Shown here piece after piece: positions 26,751 through 43,515 of a stretch of DNA of 64,000 bases. Origin of the DNA: Curtobacterium sp. MCLR17_032 (GTDB lineage Bacteria; Actinomycetota; Actinomycetes; Actinomycetales; Microbacteriaceae); the NCBI RefSeq assembly GCF_003234795.2, contig NZ_CP126268.1, forward strand, positions 2,728,001 through 2,792,000, in the 5' to 3' direction. Both the position numbers and the translations under genes were made by a program. How positions within the stretch are numbered: the first letter of the stretch is position 1; each line of letters starts with the position of its first letter. The notes below the pieces were generated by a model, which had not been told where the DNA came from, made no database searches, and worked only from the letters and a program-made list of their open reading frames with translations.

Positions 26751-26778
26751 GTCCCGGAGGATGGCACCCCCGTGTTTC
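26751..26778 (-). promoter_or_regulatory. GAAACAC promoter of the urate operon
   Basis: Read on the minus strand, GAAACAC starts at 26778 and CATCCT starts exactly 15 bp later, then seven bases lead to the uraD ATG. The second 11-bp-spaced GAAAC seen in the divergent promoter is missing. The -10 is one base away from TANNNT. Confidence 0.55.
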
Positions 26779-26839
26779 GGGGAGAGGTCGAGCAGGTCAC
26801 GGGTCCGCTGCACCGCCCGACCACGGCTGTTCCTTCCCC

Positions 26840-26878
26840 GAAACGACGCTGAAACACCGGTTCCCTAGCGTGGCCGAC
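26840..26878 (+). promoter_or_regulatory. GAAAC direct-repeat promoter of the xanthine dehydrogenase operon
   Basis: GAAAC occurs at 26840 and 26851, 11 bp apart. TAGCGT begins at 26866, exactly 15 bp after the second GAAAC. Transcription should start near 26878. The same layout is found at 40298-40329 and 43460-43491. Confidence 0.75.
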
Positions 26879-27037
26879 ATGGCATGGAACCGGGGCATGA
26901 TCGCGCACGGCCGACGAGTCGGTGCGCTCGTCGACCCCTGCCGCCCTGCCCTGATCGGACCCGTCCATGGACCTCGTCTCCGTCCGCACCGTGCGGACAC
27001 CGTCGCACCGCGACGACCTCGCCTTCGCACCCGGTGA
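26879..27037 (+). CDS. Possible 52-residue leader ORF at the xdh promoter
   Basis: The predicted transcript start coincides with the ATG at 26879, seven bases after TAGCGT. From it an ORF of 52 codons runs into the FAD-subunit gene in another frame, overlapping it by 71 bases. The Arg-rich peptide resembles no protein I know. It may be a regulatory leader or a by-product of leaderless initiation. There is no independent evidence that it is translated. Confidence 0.3.
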   Translation: MAWNRGMIAHGRRVGALVDPCRPALIGPVHGPRLRPHRADTVAPRRPRLRTR

Positions 27038-27824
27038 CCGCCCGCTCGGTGGCGGCACCTGGCTCTTCTCGGAGGAGCAACCCGGCCTGACCGGGCTCGT
27101 CGACCTGACGACCCTCGGGTGGCCCGACGTCGAGCGGACGCCGGGCACGCTGACGATCGCGGCGACGTGCACGATCGCCGCGCTGCTCCGGGTGCACCCG
27201 GACCCCGACTGGGCCGCCTGGCCGCTGGTGGACCGGTGCGCGAACGCACTGCTCGCCTCGTTCAAGGTGTGGAACGCGGCGACCGTCGGCGGGAACGTGG
27301 CGGTCGGGCTGCCGGCCGGGGCGATGACGGCGCTGCTCGTCACACTCGACGCGACCGCGGTGGTGTGGACGCCGGACGGCGGGGAGCGCCGCGTGCCCGT
27401 CGAGCAGCTCGTGCTCGGCGTGCAGACGCTGGACCTCCGGCACGGTGAGGTGATCCGGGCGTTCGACCTGCCGGAGGAAGCGCTGCGCGCGACGACCGGG
27501 TTCCGCCGGGTGTCGCTCAGCCCGCACGGCCGGTCGGGCTCGCTCGTCACCGCACGGTGGTCGGCGGCGGGCTTCGTGCTCGTCGTCACGGCGGCGACCC
27601 CGCGGCCGGTGGTGTTCCGGTGGTCGTCGGTGCCGTCGGCCGACGAGGTGGACGCCGCCCTCGACGCCGTCCTGGGCTCGGACGAGGACTGGTACGACGA
27701 CCCGCACGGATCACCCCGGTGGCGACGTGCGGTGAGCAGCGTGTTCGCCCACGAGCTCCGCGACGAAGCCGCCGAGGCAGCGGGCGCACCGGGAACGACC
27801 GCAGCGACGGCGGGCACTCGATGA
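26967..27824 (+). CDS. Xanthine dehydrogenase FAD-binding subunit
   Basis: This 285-residue protein has the FAD-subunit fold of the molybdenum hydroxylase family. GGGTWLFSEEQPG matches the first FAD phosphate loop and WNAATVGGNVAVGLPAG the second (usual TIGGN). It passes electrons from the iron-sulfur clusters to NAD or O2. The ATG at 26967 lacks a clear ribosome site and lies about 90 bases into the predicted transcript. Its stop overlaps the next start (ATGA). It is the first enzyme gene of the rightward xanthine-to-urate operon. Confidence 0.88.
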   Translation: MDLVSVRTVRTPSHRDDLAFAPGDRPLGGGTWLFSEEQPGLTGLVDLTTLGWPDVERTPGTLTIAATCTIAALLRVHPDPDWAAWPLVDRCANALLASFKVWNAATVGGNVAVGLPAGAMTALLVTLDATAVVWTPDGGERRVPVEQLVLGVQTLDLRHGEVIRAFDLPEEALRATTGFRRVSLSPHGRSGSLVTARWSAAGFVLVVTAATPRPVVFRWSSVPSADEVDAALDAVLGSDEDWYDDPHGSPRWRRAVSSVFAHELRDEAAEAAGAPGTTAATAGTR

Positions 27825-30643
27825 GGCTCGAGGTGGACGGCACCCCGCTCGAGGTCTCGCCGCAGCCCGGTCAGGTCCTCCGCACGCTGCTGCGCGAGCA
27901 CGGCGTGACCTCGGTGAAGAAGGGCTGCGACGCCGGTGACTGCGGTGCCTGCACGGTCCTCGTCGACCAGGTGCCGGTGCACTCCTGCATCACGCCCGCC
28001 CACCGGCTCGAGGGCCGCACGGTCACCACGGCCGCCGGTCTCGGCACCCCGGAGGACCCGCACCCCGTCCAGCGTGCGTTCGCCGAGGCACCCGGGTTCC
28101 AGTGCGGCTTCTGCACGGCGGGCTTCGTCGTCACCGCCTCGACGCTGACCGAGGACGACCTGGCCGACCGGCACCGGAAGCTCAAGGGCAACCTCTGCCG
28201 CTGCACCGGGTACCGGGCGATCGAGGACGCACTCGACGGCGTCGCGAACACGACCTGTGCGGCACCGGGCGCGGCGATCGGCACCTCGGTCACGGCCCCC
28301 GCGGCCCGACGCATCGTCACCGGCCGCGAGGAGTACACGCTGGACGTCCCGAGCGACGGGCTCCGGCGCACCGAGGCGCTCCTGCACCTCGCCGTCCTCG
28401 GCAGCCCGCACCCGCACGCCCGCATCACCGCGATCGACACCACCGAAGCCGCGGCCCTACCCGGCGTCCGCGCCGTGCTGACCCACCACGACGACCCCGG
28501 CGTGCTGTTCTCCACCGGCCGCCACGAGTCACGGCTGGACGACCCCGACGACACCCGCGTGCTCGACCCGGTGCTGCGGTTCCGCGGCCAGCGCGTCGCC
28601 GCGGTCGTCGCCGACAGCGTCCGGATCGCCGAGCAGGCGTGCGCCCTGGTCCGGGTCGAGTACGAGGTCCTCGACAGCGTCCACGACCCGGATGCGGCAC
28701 GTCGGCCGGGTGCCCCGCTCCTGCACGGTGACAAGACGACGGCCGAGCACCGGATCGCCGAGCCGGCGCGGAACGTCGTGGCGAGCCTCCACGGCGGTAC
28801 CGGCGACGTCGAGGCCGCACTGTCCGCGTCGGCCGCGACCGTCGACGGGGTCTGGACCACCGGCCGCGTCTCGCACGCGGCCCTCGAGACACACGCCACC
28901 CGCGGGTGGGTGGACCCGGACGGGAGGCTCGTGCTCCGGACCGCCACGCAGGTCCCGTTCCTGGTGCGGGACGAGATCGCCCGCGTCTTCGCGCTCGACC
29001 CGGCCCGGGTGCGCGTCGTCGCGAAGCGGGTGGGCGGCGGGTTCGGCGGCAAGCAGGAGCTGCTCACCGAGGACCTCGTCACCCTGGCGGTGCTGCGGAC
29101 CGGCCGTACCGTGCAGTTCGAGTTCAGCCGCCGGGACGAGTTCACGGTCGCACCCACCCGGCACCCGATGCGTGTCCGGGTCCGGCTCGGTGCCGATGTC
29201 GACGGCACGCTCACGGCGCTGCACGTCGACCAGACGATGGACACCGGGGCGTACGGCAACCACGGCATCGGCGTCATGTTCCACTCGGTCAGCGAGTCCG
29301 TCGCGGTGTACCGGTGCCCGGTCAAGCGCGTCGACGCCGAGTCGGTGTACACGAACAACCTGCCGTCGGGGGCGTTCCGCGGCTACGGACTCGGGCAGGT
29401 GGTGTTCGCGATCGAGTCGGCGATGGACGACCTGGCCCGCGAGCTCGGCCTCGACCCGGTCGAGTTCCGCCGGCGGAACGTCGTGGTGCCGGGTGACCCG
29501 CTCGTCGTCACGGACCCGCACGAGCAGAGCGACCTGCAGTGGGAGGGCAGCTACGGGCTCGACCAGTGCCTGGACCTCGTCGAGGACGCCCTGGCCGGAC
29601 CGCTGCCCGAGGTACCGCGGATGGACGGGCCGGTGCTCGACGGTCCAGGGCTCGACGGTCCGGGGCTGGACCGTTCTGCCCACTGGGCGTTCGGCACCGG
29701 TGTCGCCCTCGCGGCCATCGCCACCATGCCGCCTCGGGGCCACCACGCCCACACCTCGGTCGAACTGCTGCCCGGCGGGCGGTACCGGATCGGCGTCGGC
29801 ACGGCGGAGTTCGGGAACGGCACCACCACCGTGCACACGCAGCTCGTCGCCACCGCACTCGGCACCACACCCGACCGGGTCGACGTGCACCAGTCCGACA
29901 CCGACGCCGCGCGCCACGACACCGGGGCCTTCGGGTCCGCCGGGGTCGTCGTCGCCGGCCGTGCCCTGTACGCGGCAGCGCAGGCGCTCCGCGACGACCT
30001 GACCGCCCGGGCCCTGGCACTCGTCGCAGCCCGCACGCCGCGGACCGCCTCCGGCGTGCTCGGTCCGGCGGTCACCGTCGAGCCCGAGGGCGTCCGCGTC
30101 GGTGACGAACTCGTCGGGCACGCGGAACTGCTCGCCGAGGGGCCGCTCGTCGCCCACGCCAGCCACGACGGCACCCCTCGGTCCCTCGCCTTCACGGTGC
30201 ACGGAGCCCGGGTCGCGGTGCACCGACCGACCGGCGAGGTCCGCATCCTGCAGAGTGTGCAGGCCGTCGACGCCGGCACCGTCCTCAACCCGGAACAGCT
30301 CCGCGGCCAGGTCGAGGGCGGCGCGGCCCAGGCGATCGGCTCGACGCTCTACGAGGAGGTCGTGCTCGACGCCACCGGCCGGGTCACCACCGATGCCTTC
30401 CGCTCCTACCGGGTGCCGAAGATCTCCGACGTGCCGCGGACCCAGGTGCTGTTCGCCGAGACCTCCGACCCACTCGGCCCCCTCGGTGCGAAGTCGATGA
30501 GCGAGGCGCCCTACAACCCCGTCGCCCCGGCCGTCGCGAACGCCGTCCGGGACGCGATCGGCATCCGGCCGTACCGCCTGCCGATGACCCGCGACCGGGT
30601 GTGGGCGCTGCTGGCGGACGCGACCGACGCCGGGGGTGCCTGA
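27821..30643 (+). CDS. Xanthine dehydrogenase, fused 2Fe-2S and molybdopterin subunits
   Basis: This 940-residue protein joins two usual subunits. Residues 1-150 carry both 2Fe-2S sites: GCDAGDCGACTVLVD with a later Cys, and CGFCTAGF with NLCRCTGY. The molybdopterin region follows, with VGGGFGGKQEL, an AFRGYGLGQ loop and a late Glu in GAKSMSEAP. It hydroxylates hypoxanthine and xanthine to urate. FAD is on the separate upstream subunit. This FAD/FeS-Mo split is less common than the three-subunit or single-chain layouts. The stop overlaps the XdhC start. Xanthine as substrate is inferred from the urate genes next door. Confidence 0.9.
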   Translation: MRLEVDGTPLEVSPQPGQVLRTLLREHGVTSVKKGCDAGDCGACTVLVDQVPVHSCITPAHRLEGRTVTTAAGLGTPEDPHPVQRAFAEAPGFQCGFCTAGFVVTASTLTEDDLADRHRKLKGNLCRCTGYRAIEDALDGVANTTCAAPGAAIGTSVTAPAARRIVTGREEYTLDVPSDGLRRTEALLHLAVLGSPHPHARITAIDTTEAAALPGVRAVLTHHDDPGVLFSTGRHESRLDDPDDTRVLDPVLRFRGQRVAAVVADSVRIAEQACALVRVEYEVLDSVHDPDAARRPGAPLLHGDKTTAEHRIAEPARNVVASLHGGTGDVEAALSASAATVDGVWTTGRVSHAALETHATRGWVDPDGRLVLRTATQVPFLVRDEIARVFALDPARVRVVAKRVGGGFGGKQELLTEDLVTLAVLRTGRTVQFEFSRRDEFTVAPTRHPMRVRVRLGADVDGTLTALHVDQTMDTGAYGNHGIGVMFHSVSESVAVYRCPVKRVDAESVYTNNLPSGAFRGYGLGQVVFAIESAMDDLARELGLDPVEFRRRNVVVPGDPLVVTDPHEQSDLQWEGSYGLDQCLDLVEDALAGPLPEVPRMDGPVLDGPGLDGPGLDRSAHWAFGTGVALAAIATMPPRGHHAHTSVELLPGGRYRIGVGTAEFGNGTTTVHTQLVATALGTTPDRVDVHQSDTDAARHDTGAFGSAGVVVAGRALYAAAQALRDDLTARALALVAARTPRTASGVLGPAVTVEPEGVRVGDELVGHAELLAEGPLVAHASHDGTPRSLAFTVHGARVAVHRPTGEVRILQSVQAVDAGTVLNPEQLRGQVEGGAAQAIGSTLYEEVVLDATGRVTTDAFRSYRVPKISDVPRTQVLFAETSDPLGPLGAKSMSEAPYNPVAPAVANAVRDAIGIRPYRLPMTRDRVWALLADATDAGGA

Positions 30644-31641
30644 TGTTCGAACTGGCACCGCGCCTCCTGGCCGTGCTCGACGGCGGCGAGCCGATCGTCG
30701 TCGCGACCGCCGTCGACGTGCAGGGCAGCGCGCCGAGCGGCACCGGCACCTCGATGGCCGTGCTGCCCGGCGGTGAGGTCGTCGGGACGATCTCCGGCGG
30801 ATGCGTCGAGGGGGCGCTCTACGACAGCGCCGAACAGGTCCTGGCGACCGGCGTCCCGGTCCTGGAACGGTTCGGGTTCGAGGACCCCTCCGACCCCCTG
30901 GCCGACTGGGCACCGGGCCTCCGCTGCGGAGGCCGGGTCGAGGTCCTCGTCCACCGTGTCCTGCCGACCGACACCGTCGTGGTCGACGCACTCCGCGCCG
31001 CCGCTGTCGGGACGCCGACGTCGCTCGGCCTGTCGCTCGACGCGGCTTCGCTCGGCACGGTCGTGACGGCGTTCGACGGCTGCCGGACCCGCGTCTTCAC
31101 CGAGTACGCCGGCGGACGGGCGCGGTGCATCGTGGTCGGCGCGGTCGAGTTCGCCGTCGACGTGACGAACACCGCGGCGATGCTCGGCTACGCGGTGACC
31201 GTCGTCGACCCGCGGCCGGTGTTCCTCACCGCCCAGCGGTTCCCGGCGGCGCAGGAGCGGATCGTCGGGTGGCCGCCGCGGGTCCTGGCCGACACCGCGA
31301 TCGGACCGGACACCGTCGTCATCGTTTTCACCCACGACGACCGATTCGACGCCGAGGTGCTCGACCTGGCGCTCCGCCGTGGTGCCGGGTACGTCGGGGC
31401 GATGGGGTCACGGGCGACGCACGAGCGACGGCTGTCGGTGCTGCGGGACCTCGGCACGCCGGACGCCGGGCGGCTGCGGTCCCCGATCGGCCTCGACATC
31501 GGCGCTGAGACCCCGGCCGAGATGGCGCTGTCGATCATGGCGGAGGTGGTGGCGGTCCGGCGAGGTGCTTCGGGCGGCGCGCTCGTCGGCGGCAGCGGGC
31601 CGGTGCACCGACGGTCGGTCGAGGACGCCGTGTCCCGGTGA
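30643..31641 (+). CDS. xdhC: XdhC-family molybdenum-cofactor maturation protein
   Basis: This 332-residue protein binds molybdenum cofactor and helps sulfurate and insert it into xanthine dehydrogenase. The N-terminal XdhC/CoxI domain includes TISGGCVEGALY with its conserved Cys. The C-terminal Rossmann-like domain includes VTVVDPRPVF and GYVGAMGSRATHERR. The start ATG overlaps the stop of the enzyme gene (TGATG). It completes the three-gene rightward xdh operon. Confidence 0.92.
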   Translation: MFELAPRLLAVLDGGEPIVVATAVDVQGSAPSGTGTSMAVLPGGEVVGTISGGCVEGALYDSAEQVLATGVPVLERFGFEDPSDPLADWAPGLRCGGRVEVLVHRVLPTDTVVVDALRAAAVGTPTSLGLSLDAASLGTVVTAFDGCRTRVFTEYAGGRARCIVVGAVEFAVDVTNTAAMLGYAVTVVDPRPVFLTAQRFPAAQERIVGWPPRVLADTAIGPDTVVIVFTHDDRFDAEVLDLALRRGAGYVGAMGSRATHERRLSVLRDLGTPDAGRLRSPIGLDIGAETPAEMALSIMAEVVAVRRGASGGALVGGSGPVHRRSVEDAVSR

Positions 31642-31642: not shown

Positions 31643-32122
31643 TCAGTGGGCAGACGCCACGAGCCGCCGGAAGAGCGGGTACCAGTGCCGCTCGGCCAGC
31701 ACCGACCCTGCACTGCCTGCGATCCACTCGCCCGGGACGACGGGTACAGCGTCGGTCGTCCAGACGGCGAACACCGCGACCGGGGTCGGCCACTCGTACT
31801 CCGGTGTCGGCACCGTGACCGTGTTACGGACGGCTCCGACGTACCGGAGTGGCACGGGACCACCGACCACCTGACGGGCGAGACCGGCGATCGCGACCGC
31901 GCCGTCGTGGTCCTCCGCACCGACGCGCGCCGTCGGCAGGTCGAGCTTGCCCGACCCGTCGCGGCGCGTGCAGAAGACGCGGTCCTCGTCGGTCAGCAGC
32001 AGGCGGACCAGCCCGGTCGGACGGAGCACAGGGCCGCCGAGGACGACGTCTGCGACACCGCCCGGCGGCAGCCACGGGGCGTCGACGGTCGACGCGATGA
32101 CCTCCGGGGCGTCGTCCTGCAC
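31643..32122 (-). CDS. Nudix-like protein with a degenerate Nudix box
   Basis: This 159-residue protein has the Nudix-hydrolase strand order, with LVRLLLTDEDRVFCTRRDG, LDLPTARVG and a later RYVGAVRNTVTVP segment. The Nudix box position reads GAVAIAGLARQVVG and lacks the metal-binding REXXEE glutamates. Classical pyrophosphohydrolase activity is therefore doubtful. I choose the GTG at 32122 because TACCCT lies six bases upstream, the leaderless pattern seen elsewhere here. It converges on the XdhC gene with one base between the stops. Confidence 0.55.
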   Translation of the reverse strand: MQDDAPEVIASTVDAPWLPPGGVADVVLGGPVLRPTGLVRLLLTDEDRVFCTRRDGSGKLDLPTARVGAEDHDGAVAIAGLARQVVGGPVPLRYVGAVRNTVTVPTPEYEWPTPVAVFAVWTTDAVPVVPGEWIAGSAGSVLAERHWYPLFRRLVASAH

Positions 32123-32177
32123 CGGACGAGGGTACCCAGCGGACGGGTATCTCGCGACCACAGCACGCGACGGGACC

Positions 32178-33758
32178 TCAGCCGACGGGGGTGAGCCGCG
32201 CCTCCCGGCCGTGGTCCGGTACCGGAGCGCCCGCGCCGGACACCGGCAGGGTGAGCACGAACGCCGCGCCGTCCAGGACGATCGGGTCGGCCGCGACCAG
32301 CTCGCCGCCGGACGCCCGGGCGATCCCGCGCGCGATCGGCAGGCCGAGGCCGGCGCCGCCGCTCCGGTCCTCGCGTCCGTCGTTCAGGCGGACGAGTCGG
32401 TCGAAGACCCGCTCGCGGTCGGCAGTCGGGATGCCGACGCCGTCGTCCTCGAGTCGGACCACCGCGGTGTCCGCACCGTCGGCAGCCAGGAGCGTGAGGA
32501 GCAGGTGACCGTCTCCGCCGGTCGCCCGGGCGGCGTTGTCGGCGAGGTTGCCGAGCACCTGGGCGATCCGGTCCGCGTCGAGCAGCGCCGGCACCGGATG
32601 GTCCGGCACCCGGACGTCGAGGTGCACGGACGGCAGCCGCAGGACCAGCCGCTCCGCCTCGGCCATCAGGAACGCGGCCAGGTCCACCGGGCGGCGGTCG
32701 AGGTCGATCCCACGGTCCAACCGCGCCATCGTGAGCATGTCGTCGACGAGCCGGGAGGCGCGCCCCGCCTGCCGCACGACGTGCACCGCGAGCTGCTCCT
32801 GCTGCTCCCCCTGCACGCCCGCGCGGATCAGCGTCTCCGCGGCCGCCCGGACACCGGCGACCGGGGTGCGGAGTTCGTGAGCGGCATCGGACAGGAACGC
32901 CCGGAGGCGCAGCTCGGCCTGGACAGCCTGGTCCTCCGCCCCCTCGACCGCGTCGAGCATGGTGTCGAGCGCGGTCGCGACCCGGCCGATCTCGGTGTCG
33001 TCCCGGTGCGGTCGGAGGCGCCGGCCACGGTCACCGCCGGCGATCGACATCGCGGTCGACGTCACGACGTCGAGCGGTCGGAGCGCCCGTCGGACGACGA
33101 GGGTGACACCGACGACGGCGACGACGAGGAACCCGGCGGAGGCAGCGCCCATCACCCAGCCGAGCGTCGCCAGAGTGGACTGGACGTCGCGCGTGCCGGT
33201 CGTCAGCGTCAGGACCGTGCCGTCGTCGAGCCGTGACCTGAGGGTCAGGACGCCGTCGTCCTCGGAGGTCGTCGAGGACACCACGGACGCGCCGTCCGCG
33301 CTGCCGGTCGTGGTGCGGCCGGCGCCGGTGCCCGTGCCGGTGTTCCCGGCAGCGGCGCCCGGGCCTGATCCCGGCGCGGGCAGGTCCCCCGGGTCGGGCG
33401 GTCCGGTGCGGAGCTGCTCGGGCGACGGGCCGGCCTGCACCTCGGCACCGTCGGGCTGCACGATGCGCACTGACAGGCCCTGCATCGAAAGACGGTCGGC
33501 GAGGTCGTCGGCATCGACGGTCCCGACGAGGGCCGCCGCCGCCGACGCCCGGTCGCGCAGCCGGTCGACGGTCTGGGCGCGGAGCTGATCGCCGAGCAGG
33601 ACCTGCACCGCGATGCACAGCCCGCCGAGCAGGACGGCCAGGAGGAGCACGATCGCCACGACGGTCCGCAGGCGGAGGGACGTGGTGCGGAGCGCGGGCG
33701 GCGCGGCTGTCGCGGGCGGTTGCGTGGTGTCGCCGACCACGACGCGTCGGCGGTTCAC
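32178..33758 (-). CDS. Two-component sensor histidine kinase
   Basis: This 526-residue kinase has a first membrane helix near residues 30-50 and an outer sensor region of about 140 residues with a Gly/Thr-rich stretch. A second helix near 195-215 leads to HAMP, then the phosphoacceptor His in FLSDAAHELRTPVAG. The ATPase domain shows QVLGNLADNAARA and a G-box GAGLGLPIARGI. It is encoded after its response regulator with a four-base overlap. The signal is unknown. A likely target is the divergent exported-protein gene at 34583. Confidence 0.93.
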   Translation of the reverse strand: MNRRRVVVGDTTQPPATAAPPALRTTSLRLRTVVAIVLLLAVLLGGLCIAVQVLLGDQLRAQTVDRLRDRASAAAALVGTVDADDLADRLSMQGLSVRIVQPDGAEVQAGPSPEQLRTGPPDPGDLPAPGSGPGAAAGNTGTGTGAGRTTTGSADGASVVSSTTSEDDGVLTLRSRLDDGTVLTLTTGTRDVQSTLATLGWVMGAASAGFLVVAVVGVTLVVRRALRPLDVVTSTAMSIAGGDRGRRLRPHRDDTEIGRVATALDTMLDAVEGAEDQAVQAELRLRAFLSDAAHELRTPVAGVRAAAETLIRAGVQGEQQEQLAVHVVRQAGRASRLVDDMLTMARLDRGIDLDRRPVDLAAFLMAEAERLVLRLPSVHLDVRVPDHPVPALLDADRIAQVLGNLADNAARATGGDGHLLLTLLAADGADTAVVRLEDDGVGIPTADRERVFDRLVRLNDGREDRSGGAGLGLPIARGIARASGGELVAADPIVLDGAAFVLTLPVSGAGAPVPDHGREARLTPVG

Positions 33759-34438: not shown

Positions 34439-34498
34439 GCCGGGAACCGTAGGCGTCCACTGCGAGCAAGGAGCATGGAACGACCTGGGCAACGCCTG

Positions 34499-34517
34499 TG
34501 CTTCAGTTCTGCTTCAG
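34499..34517 (+). promoter_or_regulatory. TGCTTCAG direct repeats, probable response-regulator site
   Basis: Two perfect TGCTTCAG copies are spaced by three bases, an 11-bp period typical of OmpR/PhoB-type sites. They lie between the response-regulator gene and the divergent exported-protein gene. Confidence 0.65.
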
Positions 34518-34582
34518 ACACGACTTCCAGCGTGGTCCACAGCGAGCCGGACGGGTTCGTCACGACCACGAGGAGCACCCCG

Positions 34583-35203: not shown

Positions 35204-35210
35204 CGTGACC

Positions 35211-35259: not shown

Positions 35260-35307
35260 CTCAGGACGCCTCGCGGTCGTGGATCGTCTCCCTGACGACG
35301 GATTCCG

Positions 35308-35878: not shown

Positions 35879-36005
35879 CCCGTCAGGATCGCAGCCTGGT
35901 GAGCTCAGGGCCAGCCCTCTCCCGATCGAGTGGGCTGTCTGCCTGTCTGCTTTGTCTGCATGTCTCGCCGCAACGGTGGCGATCGAGCGCGTCGGTCTTC
36001 CGGTG

Positions 36006-36446: not shown

Positions 36447-36515
36447 GGCCTGATCCTCGCATGGACAGGCAAGGCCAGTTCGATCGCGAGTGGATCGCCG
36501 CCGGAGCCGTCCGAG

Positions 36516-36540
36516 GACCGATGACCGATGACCGATGACC
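36516..36540. repeat. 7-bp tandem repeat (gaccgat, 3.6 copies)
   Basis: Three full gaccgat units plus gacc directly precede the mntP stop codon region. Such a short repeat may vary in copy number by slippage. Confidence 0.7.
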
Positions 36541-37110
36541 TCAGCCGAGGACACCGGTGTGCTCGAGGACGACCTGCACTCCGATGAGGATGAGCACCAC
36601 ACCGCCGGCGATCTCGGCCGGCTTTCCGAAGCGGGCGCCGACCCGGCGGCCGACGGCGACGCCGACGAAGCTCAGGACCGCGGTCGTGATGCCGATGAGC
36701 AGGACCGCCCACCCGATCGACACCGGCAGGAACGCCAGCGTGACGCCGACCGCGAGGGCGTCGATGCTCGTCGCGATGGCCAGCACCAGCAGCTCACGGA
36801 TGCGCAGCCGGTCGGTGTCCTCGTCGGTGTCCTCGTGCCCGCGGAACGCCTCCCACAGCATCTTGCCGCCCACGAGCGCGAGCAGCCCGAACGCCACCCA
36901 GTGGTCGTAGGCGGCGATCGACCGGGCGAACGTCGTGCCGAGCAGCCAGCCGAGCAACGGCATCAGCGCCTGGAACAGACCGAAGACAATCGAGATCACC
37001 ACGGCCTGCCGGACGTTGAACCGCTTCATGTGCAGGCCCTTGCCGAGCGCGACGGCGAAGGCGTCGGCGGAGACGCCGAGCGCGATGAGGAAGAGGGCCC
37101 AGAACGACAT
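36541..37110 (-). CDS. mntP: MntP-type manganese efflux pump
   Basis: This 189-residue protein has six membrane helices in two related halves. The paired Asp motifs are SADAFAVALGKGLHMKRF in the first half and TSIDALAVGVTLAFLP in the second. MntP exports Mn2+ to prevent overload. Length and both motifs fit the family closely. AAAGG lies about nine bases before the ATG. I looked for a yybP-ykoY manganese riboswitch in its leader and did not find a convincing one. Confidence 0.92.
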   Translation of the reverse strand: MSFWALFLIALGVSADAFAVALGKGLHMKRFNVRQAVVISIVFGLFQALMPLLGWLLGTTFARSIAAYDHWVAFGLLALVGGKMLWEAFRGHEDTDEDTDRLRIRELLVLAIATSIDALAVGVTLAFLPVSIGWAVLLIGITTAVLSFVGVAVGRRVGARFGKPAEIAGGVVLILIGVQVVLEHTGVLG

Positions 37111-37460
37111 GGGGTGGCGCCTTTCGAGATGACAGCGGAGACACCGTCGTCTCGGAACTCGTCGATCCTGCCATGTCGCGAACGTCGTCCGGAGCGAAAA
37201 AGGCCTGATCAGAGGGATTCGGGACGACGAATTCGAGCGTTCGACGGCCCGCCCCGAGAACCCGGTGTGTCACAGAACGGTAACGAGGACAAACCGACCC
37301 AAACCGGTTCGCGACCGGCCCCGAATCACTGTCACAAGCCGGGAAACACCCGCAAGCGCTCACCAGCAGCTCACCGCTGGTTCTCCACCCCCACCGCCGG
37401 GGTGTGTTCGGCGCGCTGTCACCAACCGCGCCGAGCGCGTTCAAGCAAAGGAATGAAGAC
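37111..37460. other. Intergenic region between mntP and the secreted-protein gene
   Basis: This 350-bp divergent region holds no ORF that I support. It is less GC-rich than its surroundings. A gtcacagaacggtaacg stretch near 37269 resembles the GTCAC/GTAAC pairs bound by MtrA-type regulators in actinobacteria. The stretch tcggtt-free 37321-37400 may form the leader of the secreted-protein mRNA. Neither point is proven. Confidence 0.4.
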
Positions 37461-38144
37461 ATGCGCAAGTCCCTGAAGAACACGATCACCCTCGCCACCG
37501 CCGGCGCGATCGTCCTGGGCGGTGCCGGCTTCGGCATCACCGCCGCCAACGCCTCCACCCCGACCGTGCACACCGTCTCCTCCAGCTCCGCGTCGAAGAT
37601 CCCCGCACCGGTCGCCTCGGTCCCCGAGGTCCTCGGCGGCAACACCTCCGTCGCCCTCGACAAGGGCTTCACCGACGCCCTCACCTCGCTGAAGCTGACC
37701 CCGGGTGTCTCCGGCAACGCCAAGCTCGCCGACGGCGCCGTGTCGTTCCCGATCACCTCCGGCTCGGTCACCTACTGGAGCCCGGACGGCAAGTACCGCC
37801 CCTACGTGCAGGGCCTGCTGAACCACGACGACTCCGGCCTGACCCTCAAGGCCGGCGACACCACCGTCACGCTCGAGAACTTCGTCGTGAACCCGGGCTC
37901 CTCGAAGCTCTCCGGTGACGTCCTCGTCAACGGCAAGGTCGCCGTCGCCAACGCCTACCTCTTCTCCCTCCACGGCGGGACGCTGAAGCCGCTCCAGCTC
38001 GAGGGCGACAACGCGATCCTCACCGGCACCACCGTCCACATCTCCGACGACGCCGCGAAGCTGCTCAACAGCACCTTCAAGACCGACGCCGTCAAGGGCG
38101 GCCTGCTCGTCGGCACCGCCACCATCACCGCCCAGATCAAGTAA
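37461..38144 (+). CDS. Secreted protein of unknown function
   Basis: This 227-residue protein has a clear Sec signal peptide: MRKSLKN, a hydrophobic stretch with GAIVLGGAGFGITAA and a cleavage site after ANA. The mature part starts Ser/Thr-rich and is then mainly predicted beta strand. The segments AVSFPITSGSVTYWSPDG and TVTLENFVVNPGSSKL faintly recall HtaA-type or related secreted beta domains, too weakly for a name. There is no Cys and no membrane anchor. AAAGGA eight bases upstream supports the ATG. It is a monocistronic gene with its own terminator. Confidence 0.75.
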   Translation: MRKSLKNTITLATAGAIVLGGAGFGITAANASTPTVHTVSSSSASKIPAPVASVPEVLGGNTSVALDKGFTDALTSLKLTPGVSGNAKLADGAVSFPITSGSVTYWSPDGKYRPYVQGLLNHDDSGLTLKAGDTTVTLENFVVNPGSSKLSGDVLVNGKVAVANAYLFSLHGGTLKPLQLEGDNAILTGTTVHISDDAAKLLNSTFKTDAVKGGLLVGTATITAQIK

Positions 38145-38180
38145 CACCCGGCGCGTCACCGAACGCACCAGCAACACCAC

Positions 38181-38218
38181 GAGAACGCCGCCCCGGCACA
38201 CACCGGAGCGGCGTTCTT
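38181..38218 (+). terminator. Terminator of the secreted-protein gene
   Basis: The arms gagaacgccgccccgg and ccggagcggcgttctt pair with one internal mismatch around a 6-base loop. A short ttcttg tail follows. Confidence 0.8.
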
Positions 38219-38315
38219 GCGTCCCCGCCGCCATGCCGGGAGGCGCTGGCCGGCACCACGACACCGCTACACTCCGCAACGGGGCGCGACCGCGTGCTCC
38301 GGGGAAGGTGGGGAC

Positions 38316-38540
38316 GTGTTCCAGGACACTCTCGGCGGCGGGCACATCGCCGTCCTGCTCGTGATCGTGCTGCTCGAGGTCGGCGCACTGGTGGTGCTCT
38401 GGCGTGACCGGACCCGCTCGCAGCTGGCGAAGGTCGTCTGGACCGTGGTCGTCATCGCGCTGCCGGTCCTCGGCGCGCTGGGCTTCCTGCTCAACTGGGC
38501 GCTCGGACGTCTCGCCGACCGGCTGAACCGGGCGCGCTGA
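38316..38540 (+). CDS. PLDc_N-domain small membrane protein
   Basis: This 74-residue protein has two membrane helices separated by LWRDRTRSQLAKVVW and the pattern LPVLGALGFLLNW. That is the phospholipase-D/cardiolipin-synthase N-terminal domain found alone in many actinobacterial small proteins. The GTG at 38316 has GGGAAGG upstream. The longer frame from 38217 runs through the preceding terminator and is not credible. Function is unknown. Confidence 0.7.
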   Translation: MFQDTLGGGHIAVLLVIVLLEVGALVVLWRDRTRSQLAKVVWTVVVIALPVLGALGFLLNWALGRLADRLNRAR

Positions 38541-38575
38541 CCGGCGCGTCCTGACCCGGGCGCGCCGACCGCCGT

Positions 38576-38722
38576 TCAGGGACGGTAGTCGGGCCGCTGT
38601 TCGTAGAGCTTCCGCTGTCCGTCCAGGTCGTGCGTGTGCGCTCCGGACATCGCGCCGATCGTCTTCGCCACCGACTCGATCGCGAAGAGCAACCCGCGAA
38701 CCACGTTCCCCAGGATCCGCAT
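38576..38722 (-). CDS. 48-residue small protein
   Basis: This short gene reads MRILGNVVRGLLFAIESVAK at its N-terminus and ends in LYEQRPDYRP. GGGAGG lies six bases before the ATG at 38722, a strong ribosome site for this genome. One amphipathic or membrane-associated helix is likely at the N-terminus. The C-terminal half is charged. I know no family. It is convergent to the PLDc_N gene with 35 bp between stops. Confidence 0.55.
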   Translation of the reverse strand: MRILGNVVRGLLFAIESVAKTIGAMSGAHTHDLDGQRKLYEQRPDYRP

Positions 38723-38831
38723 GACGGTCCTCCCTCGTTCTGCGAACCGTACCCCGGCGACCGAGCCCGCGTCGAGACACGCCCGTCAGTGGTCGACGCC
38801 CTCCCGATCCCGAGACACCGCGGAACCCGGC

Positions 38832-38904
38832 GGCGTCTCAGCACAAGGGCGGCGTCTCACGGAGACGGGGGCGTCTCGGCACAAGGACGGCGTCTCGCGG
38901 AGCC
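38832..38904. repeat. Two 38-bp direct repeats
   Basis: Two imperfect copies of ggcgtctcNgcacaagg, each followed by a second cggcgtctc, are offset by 38 bp. They lie between the 48-residue gene and the stop of the aminohydrolase gene. Each copy can form small hairpins with neighbouring gagac. Confidence 0.65.
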
Positions 38905-38913
38905 AGCCGCGTC

Positions 38914-40212
38914 TCACGGACGCGCGCGCCCCCGCGCCAGCCGCTCCCGCAGCCGGGCCGCCAGCTCGCCCTCATCAGCCGTGACGAGCCTCCCGTCCCG
39001 CACCACCGCGCGCCCACCGACGACGACGTGCTTCGGCCGCCGCCCCGGCGACGCCCAGAGCAGTCCGGCGACCGGGTCCGCGACTCCGGCGTCCGCGACA
39101 CCGGACACGTCCCAGACGCAGAGGTCGCCCGCCGAACCGGCCCCGAGGTGACCGAGTTCCGGCCGCCCGAGCCCGATCGCGGACCCCTCGGTCGCCATGC
39201 CGAGCACCTGACGTGCCGGTAGCTGCGGTCCGACCAACGCAGAGACCTGCATCGCGAGCCGCGCGTCGGCGAGCAGGTGTCCGGCGTCGTTGCTGCCGCC
39301 CCCGCTGGTGCCGAGGCCGACCGGCACGCCCGCGGCGGCGAGCCGGGCGACGGGCGCGATCCCCCAGCCCATCGGCACGTCGCAGCCCGGTGCGTGGGTT
39401 GCGGTGACCCCGGCGGCAGCGAGGCGCCCGATCTCGTCGTCGGTGACGTCGCAGAGGTGCGCGACGGTCACGTCCGGTGCGAGCCAGCCCCACTCCTCGA
39501 GCAGGTCGAGCGGCCGACGCCCGTACCGCTCCAGCGCGATGGCGGTGTCGACCTGCTCGTTCGCCTGGGTCCGCCGACGGAGGCCGTGCTCCGCGGCGAC
39601 ATCGCCGAGCGCCCGGAACGTCGCCTCACCGTCGGAGTGCACACCCGCGGGCCCGACGGCGATCTGCAGCCGGCCGTCCGGGTCGGTGCCGCCGACCGCC
39701 TCTTCGTGCAGCAGTGCCCGGACGATCGCGTCGGCCGACGCCGCCGCCCGCGACGGGTCGTCGCGCGCGCTCCCCCGGACGAAGACGAGCCGGCCGCCGA
39801 GCCCGCGGACAGCGTCGACGGTCGCCGCGGCGAGCGCGACGGTCTCGTCGGGGTTCGCCCCGGTCGGCCAGTTCAGGTGGTGGTCGGAGATGGTCGTGAC
39901 GCCGGACAGGAGGCCCTCCGCGGCTCCGACCGCCGCCGACGCCCCGTACAGCTCGGGGTCGTGACTCGCTGCTCCGTACGCCTGCGCCATCGTGGGGAGC
40001 CAGTCCGCCATCGGCACCCCGCGCGTGCCGGGGAGCGTGCGGAACGCGGTCTGCAGCAGGTGGTGGTGGGCGTTGACGAGTCCGGCGGTGACGACACAGC
40101 CCGAGGCGTCGAGGGTGGACGCGACACTGCTGCCGTCGTCGACGACCACGTCGCCGTCGCGTTCGGTGCGGGGGTCGACGAGGACGCGGAGGGCACCGGT
40201 GACGGTCAGCAT
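38914..40212 (-). CDS. Amidohydrolase of the AtzB/8-oxoguanine-deaminase type with altered metal ligands
   Basis: This 432-residue protein follows the Trz/Atz aminohydrolase family: NAHHHLLQTAFRTLPG near residue 48, SGVTTISDHH, and VAHLCDV. The usual HxHxxE segment reads RTQANEQ, so a metal-ligand His is replaced by Gln. The usual DGSASND segment reads TSGGGSND, so the metal-ligand Asp is replaced by Ser. Catalysis may be altered or lost. TACAAA stands six bases before the ATG with GAAACA 15 bp further upstream, which places it in the same putative regulon as the purine genes. It is divergent to the intact aminohydrolase at 40337. Confidence 0.8.
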   Translation of the reverse strand: MLTVTGALRVLVDPRTERDGDVVVDDGSSVASTLDASGCVVTAGLVNAHHHLLQTAFRTLPGTRGVPMADWLPTMAQAYGAASHDPELYGASAAVGAAEGLLSGVTTISDHHLNWPTGANPDETVALAAATVDAVRGLGGRLVFVRGSARDDPSRAAASADAIVRALLHEEAVGGTDPDGRLQIAVGPAGVHSDGEATFRALGDVAAEHGLRRRTQANEQVDTAIALERYGRRPLDLLEEWGWLAPDVTVAHLCDVTDDEIGRLAAAGVTATHAPGCDVPMGWGIAPVARLAAAGVPVGLGTSGGGSNDAGHLLADARLAMQVSALVGPQLPARQVLGMATEGSAIGLGRPELGHLGAGSAGDLCVWDVSGVADAGVADPVAGLLWASPGRRPKHVVVGGRAVVRDGRLVTADEGELAARLRERLARGRARP

Positions 40213-40239
40213 GGGGAGTTTGTAGCAGGGCGCTGTTTC
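40213..40239 (-). promoter_or_regulatory. GAAACA promoter of the divergent aminohydrolase
   Basis: On the minus strand GAAACA starts at 40239, TACAAA starts 15 bp later at 40224, and six bases then lead to the ATG. Only a single GAAAC copy is present. Confidence 0.5.
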
Positions 40240-40286
40240 GGGCGCGTGACGCCGGACGTTCCGGGAGGGACGCCCCGCGTTCGCGG

Positions 40287-40336
40287 GAAACCGGCCGGGA
40301 ACACCCGCGAAACACGGGGTCCCTAGGGTCCCGGAC
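40287..40336 (+). promoter_or_regulatory. Triple GAAAC repeat promoter of the aminohydrolase gene
   Basis: GAAAC, GGAAC and GAAAC start at 40287, 40298 and 40309, an exact 11-bp period. TAGGGT begins at 40324, 15 bp after the last copy, and the ATG follows seven bases after the hexamer. Confidence 0.75.
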
Positions 40337-41734
40337 ATGACCCAGACCCTGATCCGCGGCGGGTGGGTACTGACCGCCGCCCCCGACGCCTCCACCACCC
40401 CGTCCGCGATCCGGGACGGCGCGGTGCTGCTCGACGGCGACCGGGTCGCCGCGGTCGGGTCGTTCGCCGAGCTGTCGGCAGCGAACCCGGACGCGACGGT
40501 CCGCGGTGGGGCGAACGACATCGTCACCCCGGGCTTCGTGAACACGCACGGGCACTTCAGCGAGGGCCTCATCACGGGCATCGGCTCGCAGTACACGCTG
40601 TGGGAGTGGCTGAACGCCCTGATCTCGCACGTCAACCCGGTGATGACGCGGGACAAGGCGTACGCGGGCACGATGCTGCAGGGCATCCAGATGCTCCGGA
40701 GCGGGGTGACGACGGCGAACGACATGTTCTGCTCGGACCCGATCGCCGACGAGCCGGCGACGCCGGGTGTCGTCCAGGCGCTCGAGGAGCTCGGGCTCCG
40801 CGGCGTCGTGTCGTTCGGCTCCGGGGACGTCGACCGCGGATTCGGTCCGGCGCCGATCCTGGAGGAGTTCGACGCCCTGCGCGAGGCCGCCGACGCCAGC
40901 CGGTACAGCACGTTCCGGGTCGGGATGTCCTCGATCGGCCGGTACTCGGACGCCGCGTGGCAGGAGCACATCGACTACGCGGTCGACGGCGGCCACGGCA
41001 TCCACGTGCACGTGCACGAGGTCCGCGAAGAGGTCACTGCCGCACGCCAGCGCACCGGCAGGACCGTCGTCGGGCACGCCGAGGCGACGGGCATGTTCCG
41101 CGTGCCGGTGATCGCCGCGCACAGCGTCTGGATGGACCGTCAGGACCGCGAGACCTACGCGGCGAACAGTGTCGGCGTCGCGCACAACCCGGTGGCGAAC
41201 GGCATCCTGGCGAGCGGCATCGCACCGGTCGCGGAGCTGCGGGCCCTCGGGATCCCGGTCGGCATCGGGGTGGACGGCCCGGCGTCGAACGACTCGCAGG
41301 ACTTCCTGCAGGCGATGAAGACCGCGGCGATCCTGGCCCGCATCCGCGACCTGCAGGCGACCGCGATGAGCGCCCGGGAGGCGTTCGAGATGGGTACGAT
41401 CGGCGGCGCCCGAGCACTGCGGATGGAGGCGGAGATCGGATCGCTGGAGCCCGGCAAGCGCGCCGATCTGGTGGTGTTCGACGGTGAGAGCCCGACGCTC
41501 GCGAACGTCCACGACCCGTTCCAGGCGGTCGTGTTCGTGGCCGGCAGCCGCGAGGTGAAGGACGTCTGGGTCGACGGCGAGCTGAGCCTGGCCGACTTCG
41601 AGGTCACCCGCGTCGACGTCCGGGAGGCGGTGGCTCGCGCCCGTCCGTTGGCTCGCCAGCTCGTCGAGCAGGCTGGGCTCGAGCGCCTGTCGGCGCTGAC
41701 CGGCGGGCCGCTCGACGACACCGAACGGCCGTAG
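40337..41734 (+). CDS. Metal-dependent aminohydrolase (8-oxoguanine/guanine-deaminase-like)
   Basis: This 465-residue Trz/Atz-family enzyme keeps all metal ligands: HGH in NTHGHFSEGL, HVHE in HVHVHEVREE, the His of VIAAHSVW and the Asp of GVDGPASND. Members deaminate guanine, 8-oxoguanine, triazines or thiomethyladenosine. Purine deamination is likeliest because its promoter shares the xdh repeat element. The ATG at 40337 is seven bases after TAGGGT and lacks a ribosome site, so it should be leaderless. It converges on the VanB-type reductase gene. Confidence 0.85.
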   Translation: MTQTLIRGGWVLTAAPDASTTPSAIRDGAVLLDGDRVAAVGSFAELSAANPDATVRGGANDIVTPGFVNTHGHFSEGLITGIGSQYTLWEWLNALISHVNPVMTRDKAYAGTMLQGIQMLRSGVTTANDMFCSDPIADEPATPGVVQALEELGLRGVVSFGSGDVDRGFGPAPILEEFDALREAADASRYSTFRVGMSSIGRYSDAAWQEHIDYAVDGGHGIHVHVHEVREEVTAARQRTGRTVVGHAEATGMFRVPVIAAHSVWMDRQDRETYAANSVGVAHNPVANGILASGIAPVAELRALGIPVGIGVDGPASNDSQDFLQAMKTAAILARIRDLQATAMSAREAFEMGTIGGARALRMEAEIGSLEPGKRADLVVFDGESPTLANVHDPFQAVVFVAGSREVKDVWVDGELSLADFEVTRVDVREAVARARPLARQLVEQAGLERLSALTGGPLDDTERP

Positions 41735-41750
41735 GCCCGGCGACGCCAGG

Positions 41751-42758
41751 TCAGAGCTCGAGCACCAACCGGGGGCAGCCGGCCGCCGCGCGGGAGACGC
41801 AGACCATCATGGTGCGGTCGTCGGCCTGCTCGGCGGGGCTGAGCACGGTGTCCCGGTGGTCGACCGCGCCCTCGAGGACGGGGGTCTCGCACGTGCCGCA
41901 GGTGCCCTCGCGGCAGGACGACAGGACGAAGGCCCCGGCGTCCTCCGCGACCTCGAGCAGGGACCGGTCGGCAGGGACCGTGACGGTCGTGCCGGTCAGG
42001 GTGAGCTCGACCTCGAAGGACTCCCCCGGGGCGTCCACGTCGGCGGCCGGTTCGAAGCGCTCGACGCGGACGCTGCCGGCCGGCCAGTGCGCGGCGGCGG
42101 CTTCGACGGCGTCCATGAGACCCCGCGGACCGCAGCAGTAGACGACGGCGTCCCGCGGTTCGGCGAGCAGCCCGACCACGTTCAACCGGGGCGCCTGGTC
42201 GGCCGCGGCGAGGACGACCCGGTCGGGGTGCGCGGCCAGGAGCTCGTCGGCGAACGCCATCCGGTCGCGGGAGCGCCCGGCGTAGTGCAGCTCCCACGGC
42301 GTCCCGGCCTGCTCGGCGGCGGCGATCATCGCGCGGATCGGGGTGATCCCGATGCCGCCGGCGACGAAGACAGCGGGCCGGTCGGGGTCGAAGCCGAAGT
42401 GGTTGCGCGGGCCGCCGACCAGGACCTCGTCGCCGATCCGCAGGGTGTCATGCACGGCGACGGACCCGCCCCGACCACCGGCTTCGCGGAGGACCGCCAC
42501 CCGCCAGTGCCCGTCCGGGGTGGTGGTGACGAGCGAGTACTGGCGTTCGGTGCCGGGCACGACCTCGAGGTCCACGTGGGCGCCGGGCTCCCAGTCAGGC
42601 AGGGCACCACCGTCGACGGGGGCGAGGTCGAGCGTGACGACGTCCTCGGCCACCCGCTGCCGGTCGGCGATGCGCATCCGGTGCCGGGCCTCCGCACCGT
42701 TCGTTGTGCCAGCGCGGTTCGTGAACCCGATGCCGTTCGAGATGCCGGGCCCGCTCAT
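41751..42758 (-). CDS. PDR/VanB-type oxidoreductase (flavin, NAD, 2Fe-2S)
   Basis: This 335-residue electron-transfer protein has three domains. A flavin barrel contains RQYSLVTT near residue 75, an NAD domain contains GGIGITPIRAM, and a C-terminal plant-type ferredoxin domain contains SSCREGTCGTCETPVL with a later Cys. Such reductases feed Rieske or other oxygenases, for example in demethylation. No oxygenase gene is in the window. Its start overlaps the stop of the XRE-cupin regulator gene, so the two are co-expressed. The N-terminal 25 residues are Gly/Asn-rich and unconserved. Confidence 0.88.
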   Translation of the reverse strand: MSGPGISNGIGFTNRAGTTNGAEARHRMRIADRQRVAEDVVTLDLAPVDGGALPDWEPGAHVDLEVVPGTERQYSLVTTTPDGHWRVAVLREAGGRGGSVAVHDTLRIGDEVLVGGPRNHFGFDPDRPAVFVAGGIGITPIRAMIAAAEQAGTPWELHYAGRSRDRMAFADELLAAHPDRVVLAAADQAPRLNVVGLLAEPRDAVVYCCGPRGLMDAVEAAAAHWPAGSVRVERFEPAADVDAPGESFEVELTLTGTTVTVPADRSLLEVAEDAGAFVLSSCREGTCGTCETPVLEGAVDHRDTVLSPAEQADDRTMMVCVSRAAAGCPRLVLEL

Positions 42759-43387
42759 GATGCCGCTCCGGCCCGCGGGGTCTCCTTGACGACGATCATG
42801 TGGAACGCGCTGCCGTCGGCACTGCACCAGCGGTGCCCGGTGCCACCGCGGTAGTACGCCGAGTCGCCGGGCCCGAGCCGGACGACGTCCTGGCCGCGGA
42901 GGTCGAGCAGGACGTCCCCGGCGAGCACGGTGAGGAACTCGTCCTCGCGGTGCTCGAAGTACTCCCCCGGTTCGGTGTTGTCGCCCTTCCACTCGAGCGG
43001 CTCGAAGGCGTGCGGGCCGGCGTGCACGAGCAGCCGGGCCTCGCCGCTGGAGAACGGCCCGCGGGCACCCTCGCCGGAACGGAGCACCTCGGGGCGCCGG
43101 TCGTCGGGCTCGTCGCGGACCGGGGCCCCGGCGGCGAGGAGGGCGACCTGCGTGGTGTCGAGCGCGGCGGCGATCTTCTCGAGCGAGACCATGCTCGCCC
43201 GCGAGTGTCCGCGCTCCACCTGGCTGAGGAACGGGTGCGACAGCCCGGTCCGTTCGGCGAGCTGCACGAGCGTCAGACGCGACGAACGGCGCAGCGCCCG
43301 GATGTGCTCGCCGACGAGACGGGCCTGCTCGTCGACGACCCGGTCGGCGACGGGCAGGTCGCGCTCGGGCAGGAGTTCGGTGTGCAT
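42755..43387 (-). CDS. XRE-family regulator with cupin sensor domain
   Basis: This 210-residue regulator has an XRE helix-turn-helix near residues 25-80 (LTLVQLAERTGLSHPFLSQV) and a C-terminal cupin barrel with EHREDEFLTVLAGDVLLDL and GTGHRW. Such proteins sense small catabolic ligands such as amines, amino acids or heterocycles. The ATG at 43387 has GGAG three bases upstream; an ATG at 43435 is the alternative. It is divergent to the cytosine-deaminase-like operon. It is the best local candidate for binding the 19-bp palindrome at 43497 or the GAAAC repeats. Confidence 0.88.
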   Translation of the reverse strand: MHTELLPERDLPVADRVVDEQARLVGEHIRALRRSSRLTLVQLAERTGLSHPFLSQVERGHSRASMVSLEKIAAALDTTQVALLAAGAPVRDEPDDRRPEVLRSGEGARGPFSSGEARLLVHAGPHAFEPLEWKGDNTEPGEYFEHREDEFLTVLAGDVLLDLRGQDVVRLGPGDSAYYRGGTGHRWCSADGSAFHMIVVKETPRAGAAS

Positions 43388-43459
43388 CGCGCTCCGATCG
43401 TGGTCCGGACGGGCCGGGCGTTCCGTGTGGTCCATCTCGTCACAGCCGGCAACCGGAGC

Positions 43460-43496
43460 GAAACGGGTGGGAAACACGGCCCACCTAGCATCGTGG
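43460..43496 (+). promoter_or_regulatory. GAAAC direct-repeat promoter of the N-heterocycle operon
   Basis: GAAAC occurs at 43460 and 43471 (11 bp apart), with GCAAC another 11 bp upstream. TAGCAT begins at 43486, 15 bp after the second copy. Transcription should start near 43497. Confidence 0.75.
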
Positions 43497-43515
43497 ATGT
43501 TGATGCGATCAACAT
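43497..43515 (+). promoter_or_regulatory. 19-bp palindromic operator at the transcription start
   Basis: ATGTTGATGCGATCAACAT has perfect 8-bp arms and a 3-base centre. It begins at the predicted start of transcription, an ideal position for a repressor. The neighbouring XRE-cupin protein is the natural candidate. Confidence 0.7.

Follow-up and report, generated by a model that had tools for sequence, protein, structure and literature searches.

The stretch of DNA analysed here, hereafter the window, comprises 64,000 nucleotides of the genome of Curtobacterium sp. MCLR17_032, a member of the Microbacteriaceae (contig NZ_CP126268.1, positions 2,728,001 to 2,792,000; the genome is 3,710,209 bases in one contig). 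It holds genes for xanthine dehydrogenase (xdh) and uraD, two purine-type aminohydrolase genes on opposite strands and, from about 43.5 kb, an operon that begins with a cytosine-deaminase-like gene and has a divergent XRE-cupin regulator gene beside it. Five promoters at these genes carry the hexamer GAAACA, in what are very probably boxes for GlnR, a nitrogen regulator of actinobacteria (Table 1).

Table 1. Genes and promoter elements of the window, by position. ABC, ATP-binding cassette; FAD, flavin adenine dinucleotide; nt, nucleotides; OHCU, 2-oxo-4-hydroxy-4-carboxy-5-ureidoimidazoline.
Feature	Coordinates	Strand	Evidence and remarks
uraD (OHCU decarboxylase)	26208..26750	-	Pfam PF09349
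-10-like hexamer CATCCT of uraD	26758..26763	-	7 nt before ATG 26750 (leaderless spacing); AATCCT in congeners
Predicted GlnR box of uraD	26773..26800	-	GTGAC 26800-26796, degenerate GACCT 26789-26785, GAAACA 26778-26773; congeners GTCAC-n6-GAGAC-n6-GAAACA
Predicted GlnR box of xdh operon	26840..26856	+	GAAAC-n6-GAAACA, b-site (GAAACA) 26851; congeners GTAAC-n6-GAAACA
-10-like hexamer TAGCGT of xdh	26866..26871	+	10 nt after GAAAC
xdh FAD-binding subunit (FAD_binding_5)	26967..27824	+	Pfam, NCBIfam
xdh molybdenum/iron-sulfur subunit	frame to 30643	+	Pfam, NCBIfam; downstream of FAD subunit
XdhC	30601-31641	+	Pfam, NCBIfam
8-oxoguanine-deaminase-like amidohydrolase (minus-strand aminohydrolase)	38914..40212	-	254 bits against a cut-off of 532 (below)
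-10-like hexamer TACAAA	40219..40224	-	6 nt before ATG 40212; TAGAAA in congeners
Predicted GlnR box, minus-strand aminohydrolase	40234..40261	-	GGAAC-n6-GTCAC-n6-GAAACA, GAAACA from 40239; GTCAC-n6-GAAACA kept in both congeners
Predicted triple GlnR box, plus-strand aminohydrolase	40287..40314	+	GAAAC-n6-GGAAC-n6-GAAACA, GAAACA from 40309; congeners GAAAC-n6-GTAAC-n6-GGAACA
-10-like hexamer TAGGGT	40324..40329	+	7 nt before ATG 40337
Purine-type amidohydrolase/deaminase (plus-strand aminohydrolase)	40337..41734	+	Listed NCBIfam scores all below curated cut-offs
XRE-cupin regulator gene, divergent from operon	42755..43387	-	Pfam HTH_3 and Cupin_2 over cut-off
Predicted triple GlnR box of 43.5-kb operon	43449..43476	+	GCAAC-n6-GAAAC-n6-GAAACA, GAAACA from 43471; kept in congeners and family
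-10-like hexamer TAGCAT	43486..43491	+	Sequence
Palindrome ATGTTGAT-GCG-ATCAACAT, predicted XRE-cupin operator over transcription start	43497..43515	+	Perfect; five bases after -10
Cytosine-deaminase-like amidohydrolase, first operon gene	43541..44851	+	Pfam, NCBIfam
ABC transporter ATPase (44887-45654) and permease (45654-46523)	44887..46523	+	Pfam
Substrate-binding protein	46645..47838	+	Predicted model, Foldseek; fold like thiamin/aminopyrimidine binders and THI5
FAD_binding_4 oxidase (47884-49401) and PNPOx-like protein (49682-50809)	47884..50809	+	Pfam; order conserved

Repeats and spacing at the five promoters

A sequence-only reading of this DNA had noted that GAAACA begins 15 bp before a -10-like hexamer at each of the five promoters, and re-reading of the letters confirmed every site, coordinate and distance. 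The further copies that it reported 11 bp upstream of the three plus-strand sites are present as well: GAAAC at 26840, GAAAC at 43460, and GGAAC at 40298 followed upstream by GAAAC at 40287, which makes three repeats in a row at 40.3 kb as claimed. The 43.5-kb site has an additional third repeat, GCAAC at 43449, and the minus-strand aminohydrolase has an upstream repeat too, GTCAC at 40250-40246. At uraD, GACCT stands where the 11-bp repeat is expected and GTGAC lies at 22 bp. The two minus-strand hexamers, CATCCT and TACAAA, do not match TANNNT. Assuming that transcription begins at the leaderless ATGs, the last box would lie at about -28 to -23, with the repeats running across the -35 region. 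A candidate leaderless small open reading frame at 26879 in the xdh leader, whose ATG keeps the same spacing to the -10 as at two other promoters, was rejected; the ATG is absent there in both of the congeners described below.

By itself, GAAACA shows no enrichment in the window, which has 8 copies against a mean of 5.57 in 200 first-order Markov sequences, 40 of which reach at least 8. With its spacing included, GAAACA-N9-TANNNT occurs three times against a mean of 0.015, and none of the 200 sequences reaches three. A looser pattern that admits all five sites, with a hexamer rule relaxed after the fact, occurs five times against a mean of 0.175, and again no Markov sequence reaches that count. 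The remaining three of the eight GAAACA copies (8283, 37343 and, on the minus strand, 6037) have no such hexamer. Direct-repeat-like stretches also occur between 37269 and 37348, with GTCAC-n6-GTAAC at 37269 and GTCAC-n7-GAAACA at about 37331-37348, neither with a TANNNT at the usual distance.

The box and GlnR in the genome and the family

GlnR is encoded outside the window, in open frame G000:C1:3199205-3199918. This candidate (L007:1045-1758) is one of the genome's 16 Trans_reg_C matches and carries the receiver-like Pfam domain GlnR_1st (PF21695, 2.5e-42) and the OmpR-type DNA-binding domain PF00486 (5e-28). Its best sequence matches in the PDB are 8HIH, 8HIG, 8HML, 4O1I and 4O1H; only 4O1H is labelled GlnR there, and the other four we take to be GlnR structures as well. 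The region around the conserved aspartate (VDAR.DL) aligns with 8HIH, and the DNA-binding stretch aligns with one difference.

Random occurrence of the motif across the genome had been named beforehand as the outcome that would speak against a common regulator. In 3.71 Mb, the pattern GNNAC-N6-GAAAC-N10-TANNNT was found five times, against none for its reversed form. Three of the five matches are window promoters, those of xdh, the plus-strand aminohydrolase and the 43.5-kb operon. The fourth precedes glnA (Pfam Gln-synt_C and Gln-synt_N), where the boxes form a tandem GTAAC-n6-GAAAC-n6-GTCAC-n6-GAAAC (a-b-a-b) in the same register as in the window; the fifth precedes the gene of an ABC substrate-binding protein (Peripla_BP_6) of the branched-chain amino acid/urea type. 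Without the hexamer, GNNAC-N6-GAAAC has 42 matches against 8 for the control, and 13 of these could be assigned: five in the window, two at glnA, one at amtB (TIGR00836, over cut-off), one at an NCS1 permease (by Pfam), two at branched-chain-type ABC genes and two at DctA-like transporters, whose calls lie below curated cut-offs. Among 39 distinct sites of this genome, a TANNNT follows GAAAC at an offset of 10 in five and of 21, that is, one more repeat, in three, with three others anywhere between 0 and 39. The two DctA-like transporters are paralogous (G000:C1 301760 and 3577278; L024 and L062), and each has a box GTnAC-n6-GAAAC 22 nt before its ATG.

Conservation of the motif at orthologous genes is complete in two congeners (G031 and G105) and partial in the family. 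Both congeners keep all five window boxes in the same register. Their substitutions, such as GAAAC to GTAAC at xdh and GGAAC to GTAAC at the plus-strand aminohydrolase, mostly preserve GnnAC, the kind of change that GlnR tolerates. Between xdhC and the minus-strand aminohydrolase the window has about 7 kb (about 31650-38900) without a counterpart at this place in either congener, where the two genes stand close. This insert, which includes the direct-repeat-like stretches at 37269-37348, encodes a histidine kinase together with an OmpR-type response regulator (32178-34492).

Searched across 150 family genomes, the pattern matched 293 times, in 110 genomes, and its reversed form 22 times, in 19. 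We then compared 260 bp upstream of glnA, xdh and the operon, with promoters chosen by gene and each set formed by the best 30 loci of its search (genomes matched: 150/150, 50/150 and 52/150, respectively), so close relatives are over-represented. For the operon 27 of the 30 loci were used, L188-L190 being dropped at no more than 31% identity. A strict box precedes glnA in 30/30 genomes (shuffle mean 0.10), the box with N10 and TANNNT precedes the operon in 22/27 (shuffle mean 0.01), and a loose box with N10 and T....T precedes xdh in 20/30 (shuffle mean 0.06); within 300 bp, relaxed GnnAY sites occur in 26 of the 27 operon heads. Offsets from box to TANNNT cluster as in this genome, at 10 (19) and 21 (23) with 4 others for glnA, and at 10 (22), 21 (16) and 19 (1) for the operon. 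At xdh the only offset is 10, in three of the 30 heads, all of the genus.

GlnR_1st is found above cut-off in 142 of the 150 family genomes. In the 300 bp before glnA, a strict or loose box is absent from all eight genomes without GlnR and present in 8 of 12 genomes chosen with GlnR; for the relaxed pattern the counts are 1/8 and 9/12. The twelve were picked by hand, eleven with divergent glnA and G073 as the same-genus partner of G136. Two same-genus pairs show the difference directly, with GlnR and box in G020 and neither in G100, and likewise for G073 and G136. At least one genome-wide pattern match is present in 2 of the 8 genomes without GlnR and in 108 of the 142 with it (Fisher p 0.005). 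In one of the GlnR-less genomes, G027, the region upstream of glnA is AT-richer.

The 43.5-kb operon and its palindrome

All six operon proteins, the deaminase-like enzyme, ABC ATPase, permease, substrate-binding protein, FAD oxidase and PNPOx-like protein, occur in 18 of 20 relatives, the transporter being missing in two. Among the 26 genomes that have a good orthologue (at least 57% identity, the window's genome included), 22 keep operon and xdh no more than 30 kb apart; of the other four, the genes are on different contigs in two and far apart in one, and xdh was not found in the last. The sequence of the substrate-binding protein gave no match in the PDB. Its predicted model (mean predicted local distance difference test score, pLDDT, 88.9) has 4nmy and 3ix1 as best Foldseek matches, with template-modelling scores (TM-scores) of 0.59 and 0.58 by query length at 14% identity. 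As the model resembles thiamin- and aminopyrimidine-binding proteins, the substrate of the operon is likely a heterocyclic nitrogen compound.

The divergent XRE-cupin protein has an N-terminal XRE helix-turn-helix (HTH) and a C-terminal cupin domain. A search for palindromes gave a single match, the perfect palindrome just downstream of the operon's -10 hexamer, and none in shuffles. A second perfect copy was not found in the genome; two other places match with 3 mismatches, and a reversed control scores too. In the 27 orthologous operon heads, the palindrome (at most 2 mismatches) is present in 23/23 with a divergent XRE-cupin gene in the stretch covered and in 0/4 without one, where the best fits have 6-7 mismatches. 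It stands 5 bp from the -10 in 20 of the 23 and at 4, 16 and 27 bp in the others, and the HTH stretch LSHPFLSQLERG is near-invariant in the 23 XRE-cupin orthologues. One of the four heads lacking an adjacent XRE-cupin gene, L173 (G139), has a decayed palindrome-like stretch with 6 mismatches at the usual 5 bp from the -10.

A second survey took the best 80 of 280 XRE-cupin relatives, from named genomes, a set that partly overlaps the first and contains many Curtobacterium and some species already present in the first. The palindrome (at most 2 mismatches; 5-8 in the rest) is present in 61 of these loci and accompanied by the box in 56, the five without a box being from Sinomonas, Kutzneria and three Amycolatopsis. 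It occurs in 61 of 63 loci with a divergent deaminase-like gene (exceptions L266 and L278) and in none of the 17 without, where the XRE-cupin gene comes after xdhC and an 8-oxoguanine-deaminase-like gene. Four of those 17 have a stretch that reaches the operon, and in three of the four a variant palindrome with 3 mismatches precedes it. The palindrome thus tracks the divergent XRE-cupin gene, and therefore the XRE-cupin protein fits the palindrome at 43497-43515, by co-occurrence, rather than GAAACA.

No palindrome is present at the xdh promoter of the window itself, where the best fit has 8 mismatches. Four of the 30 family xdh heads, all from other genera (L068, L076, L082 and L084), have one, at 1-3 mismatches, close to the start codon of xdh; L072, which was read at the wrong position in this count, is not among them. 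In those genera the XRE-cupin protein may also control xdh.

Probable GlnR regulation and its known counterparts

We conclude that the five GAAACA sites are almost certainly GlnR boxes, from which GlnR would activate these promoters under nitrogen limitation. The identity and register of the sites, the presence of GlnR, their conservation and the disappearance of the glnA box from genomes without GlnR were computed directly; from these, we infer GlnR binding, activation and a nitrogen signal in this organism. The idea of one regulator acting on one DNA face across the -35 at all five promoters, the 43.5-kb operon included, is very probably right. The accompanying statement that no described regulon has this motif was wrong, as the motif is the actinobacterial GlnR box.

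Several observations weigh against this assignment. In the window, uraD lacks the 11-bp partner repeat. Just 13 of the 42 genome-wide matches to GNNAC-N6-GAAAC stand at nitrogen-type genes or window promoters; four are one repeated sequence, presumably 16S rRNA, and 25 are unassigned, some of them surely chance. Four of the 12 GlnR-bearing genomes have no strict glnA box, and two genomes counted as lacking GlnR have matches to the box with TANNNT, three in G027 (no GlnR_1st match) and one in G121 (below cut-off). Ten of the 30 family xdh heads lack a loose box within 260 bp, and the 17 boxed xdh heads outside the genus have no TANNNT at the -10 position, with TTGACT in 10, TTCACT in 4 and others in 3 (e.g. 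L072, L074, L079).

Three other explanations were considered. Another member of the OmpR family that recognises similar direct repeats could be the main user of the box, with MtrA, which is encoded in this genome (377.8 bits against a cut-off of 300), as the foremost candidate. MtrA is, however, above cut-off in 7 of the 8 family genomes without GlnR, yet the strict or loose glnA box is gone from all eight; this speaks against MtrA in that role and makes the explanation very unlikely. A regulator specific to purines or N-heterocycles could instead bind GAAACA and control these genes only. The XRE-cupin protein, whose gene diverges from the operon and which the sequence-only reading had put forward as the binder, would be the obvious candidate, and the five sites do lie at purine-type genes. 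The same box, however, stands at glnA, amtB and nitrogen-source transporters, and purine genes of Mycobacterium smegmatis were already known to depend on GlnR; the proposed purine-specific regulon is therefore not supported. The presence of the XRE-cupin gene follows the palindrome and not the box, since three of the four operon heads without an adjacent XRE-cupin gene keep a relaxed GlnR box (GnnAY) at the usual -10 spacing. Moreover, motifs of Pseudomonas XRE-cupin proteins are palindromic, whereas GAAACA occurs in direct repeats. We consider a specific regulator of this kind extremely improbable.

Finally, the sites could be chance repeats or part of a promoter for an alternative sigma factor, for which the rigid spacing to the -10, like that of a -35 element, would speak. 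Against this, two to three repeats stand in 11-bp phase, the -10 lies mostly at 10 or, with one more repeat, at 21, congener substitutions mostly keep GnnAC, and the reversed pattern has no match. A chance origin was rejected on the genome-wide, family and Markov counts against their controls, and the probability of this explanation as a whole is negligible.

Under the GlnR assignment, an OmpR-type global nitrogen regulator would bind head-to-tail GnnAC repeats every 11 bp. With the last GnnAC ending ten bases before the -10 hexamer, it would cover a poor -35 region and help RNA polymerase when nitrogen is short. Xanthine dehydrogenase, uraD, the two purine-type deaminases and the 43.5-kb operon would thus be switched on together with glnA and amtB, and purines and related N-heterocycles would become nitrogen sources. 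At the operon we envisage a second layer, in which the divergent XRE-cupin protein would repress from the palindrome at about the transcription start until relieved by a pathway metabolite. On the whole, it is fairly probable that the operon is a conserved module for scavenging N-heterocycles (purine or aminopyrimidine) with a two-input promoter, where expression needs both activation by GlnR (nitrogen shortage) and release of the palindrome by the XRE-cupin protein (substrate present), and that the same operator at the xdh start in some other genera makes the latter a purine-pathway regulator there.

What appeared to be an unknown regulon is thus assigned to a known global one, which predicts that purine breakdown is on under nitrogen limitation in Curtobacterium and relatives; judged by sequence, the GlnR regulon then reaches into the Microbacteriaceae. 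The fixed distance from box to hexamer offers a simple rule for finding more GlnR targets. The palindrome gives an uncharacterised XRE-cupin regulator a concrete predicted operator, and the operon a two-signal logic that can be tested. No paper joining GlnR with the Microbacteriaceae or its genera was among the matches listed in our literature search, though older comparative papers may do so; a GlnR review, which describes the GlnR activation complex, names neither Leifsonia nor Curtobacterium. A search on XRE-cupin regulators and purines gave no paper on this operon's regulator and one relevant paper, on Pseudomonas XRE-cupin proteins.

That paper describes local repressors that bind next to their own gene, with palindromic derived motifs (PMC7901475). 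The ErfA, PsdR and PauR group resembles the present regulator in its HTH and cupin domains, its neighbouring metabolic operon, its palindromic motif where one was derived and its proposed occlusion of the promoter; unlike in that group, the predicted operator ATGTTGATnnnATCAACAT is here combined with a probable GlnR box. The boxes themselves have close counterparts. In Streptomyces coelicolor the GlnR box is given as gTnAc-n6-GaAAc and variants (PMC10704036), in 22-bp boxes arranged as tandem pairs or triples (PMC5826061), and the amtB and glnA boxes there share with ours the 11-bp direct repeats in two or three tandem boxes. Sites in S. venezuelae include GAAAC-n6-GAAAC (PMC3087709).

The closest likeness is to the GlnR regulon of M. 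smegmatis, whose box Gn2AC-n6-GnAACA (PMC3662644) matches GAAACA with its repeat 11 bp upstream. Transcripts lower without glnR in nitrogen-starved cells include msmeg_1292, uricase, transthyretin, xanthine-uracil and cytosine-purine permeases, a sodium:dicarboxylate symporter, urtA, glnA and amtB (PMC4222082); msmeg_1292, annotated as an FAD binding domain in molybdopterin dehydrogenase protein, we read by its annotation as xdh-like. Loci bound by GlnR include a putative allantoicase and purine permeases (PMC3662644), nitrogen limitation induces uricase, transthyretin, OHCU decarboxylase and guanine deaminase (PMC4617892), and the use of guanine as a nitrogen source is GlnR-dependent. The genes described here make up a regulon like that one, in another actinobacterial family, and no new kind of system. 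What is added here is its extension to the Microbacteriaceae, the rigidity of the register and a predicted operator for the XRE-cupin protein, and, unlike in M. smegmatis, an operon for a cytosine-deaminase-like enzyme, an ABC transporter, an FAD oxidase and a PNPOx-like protein.

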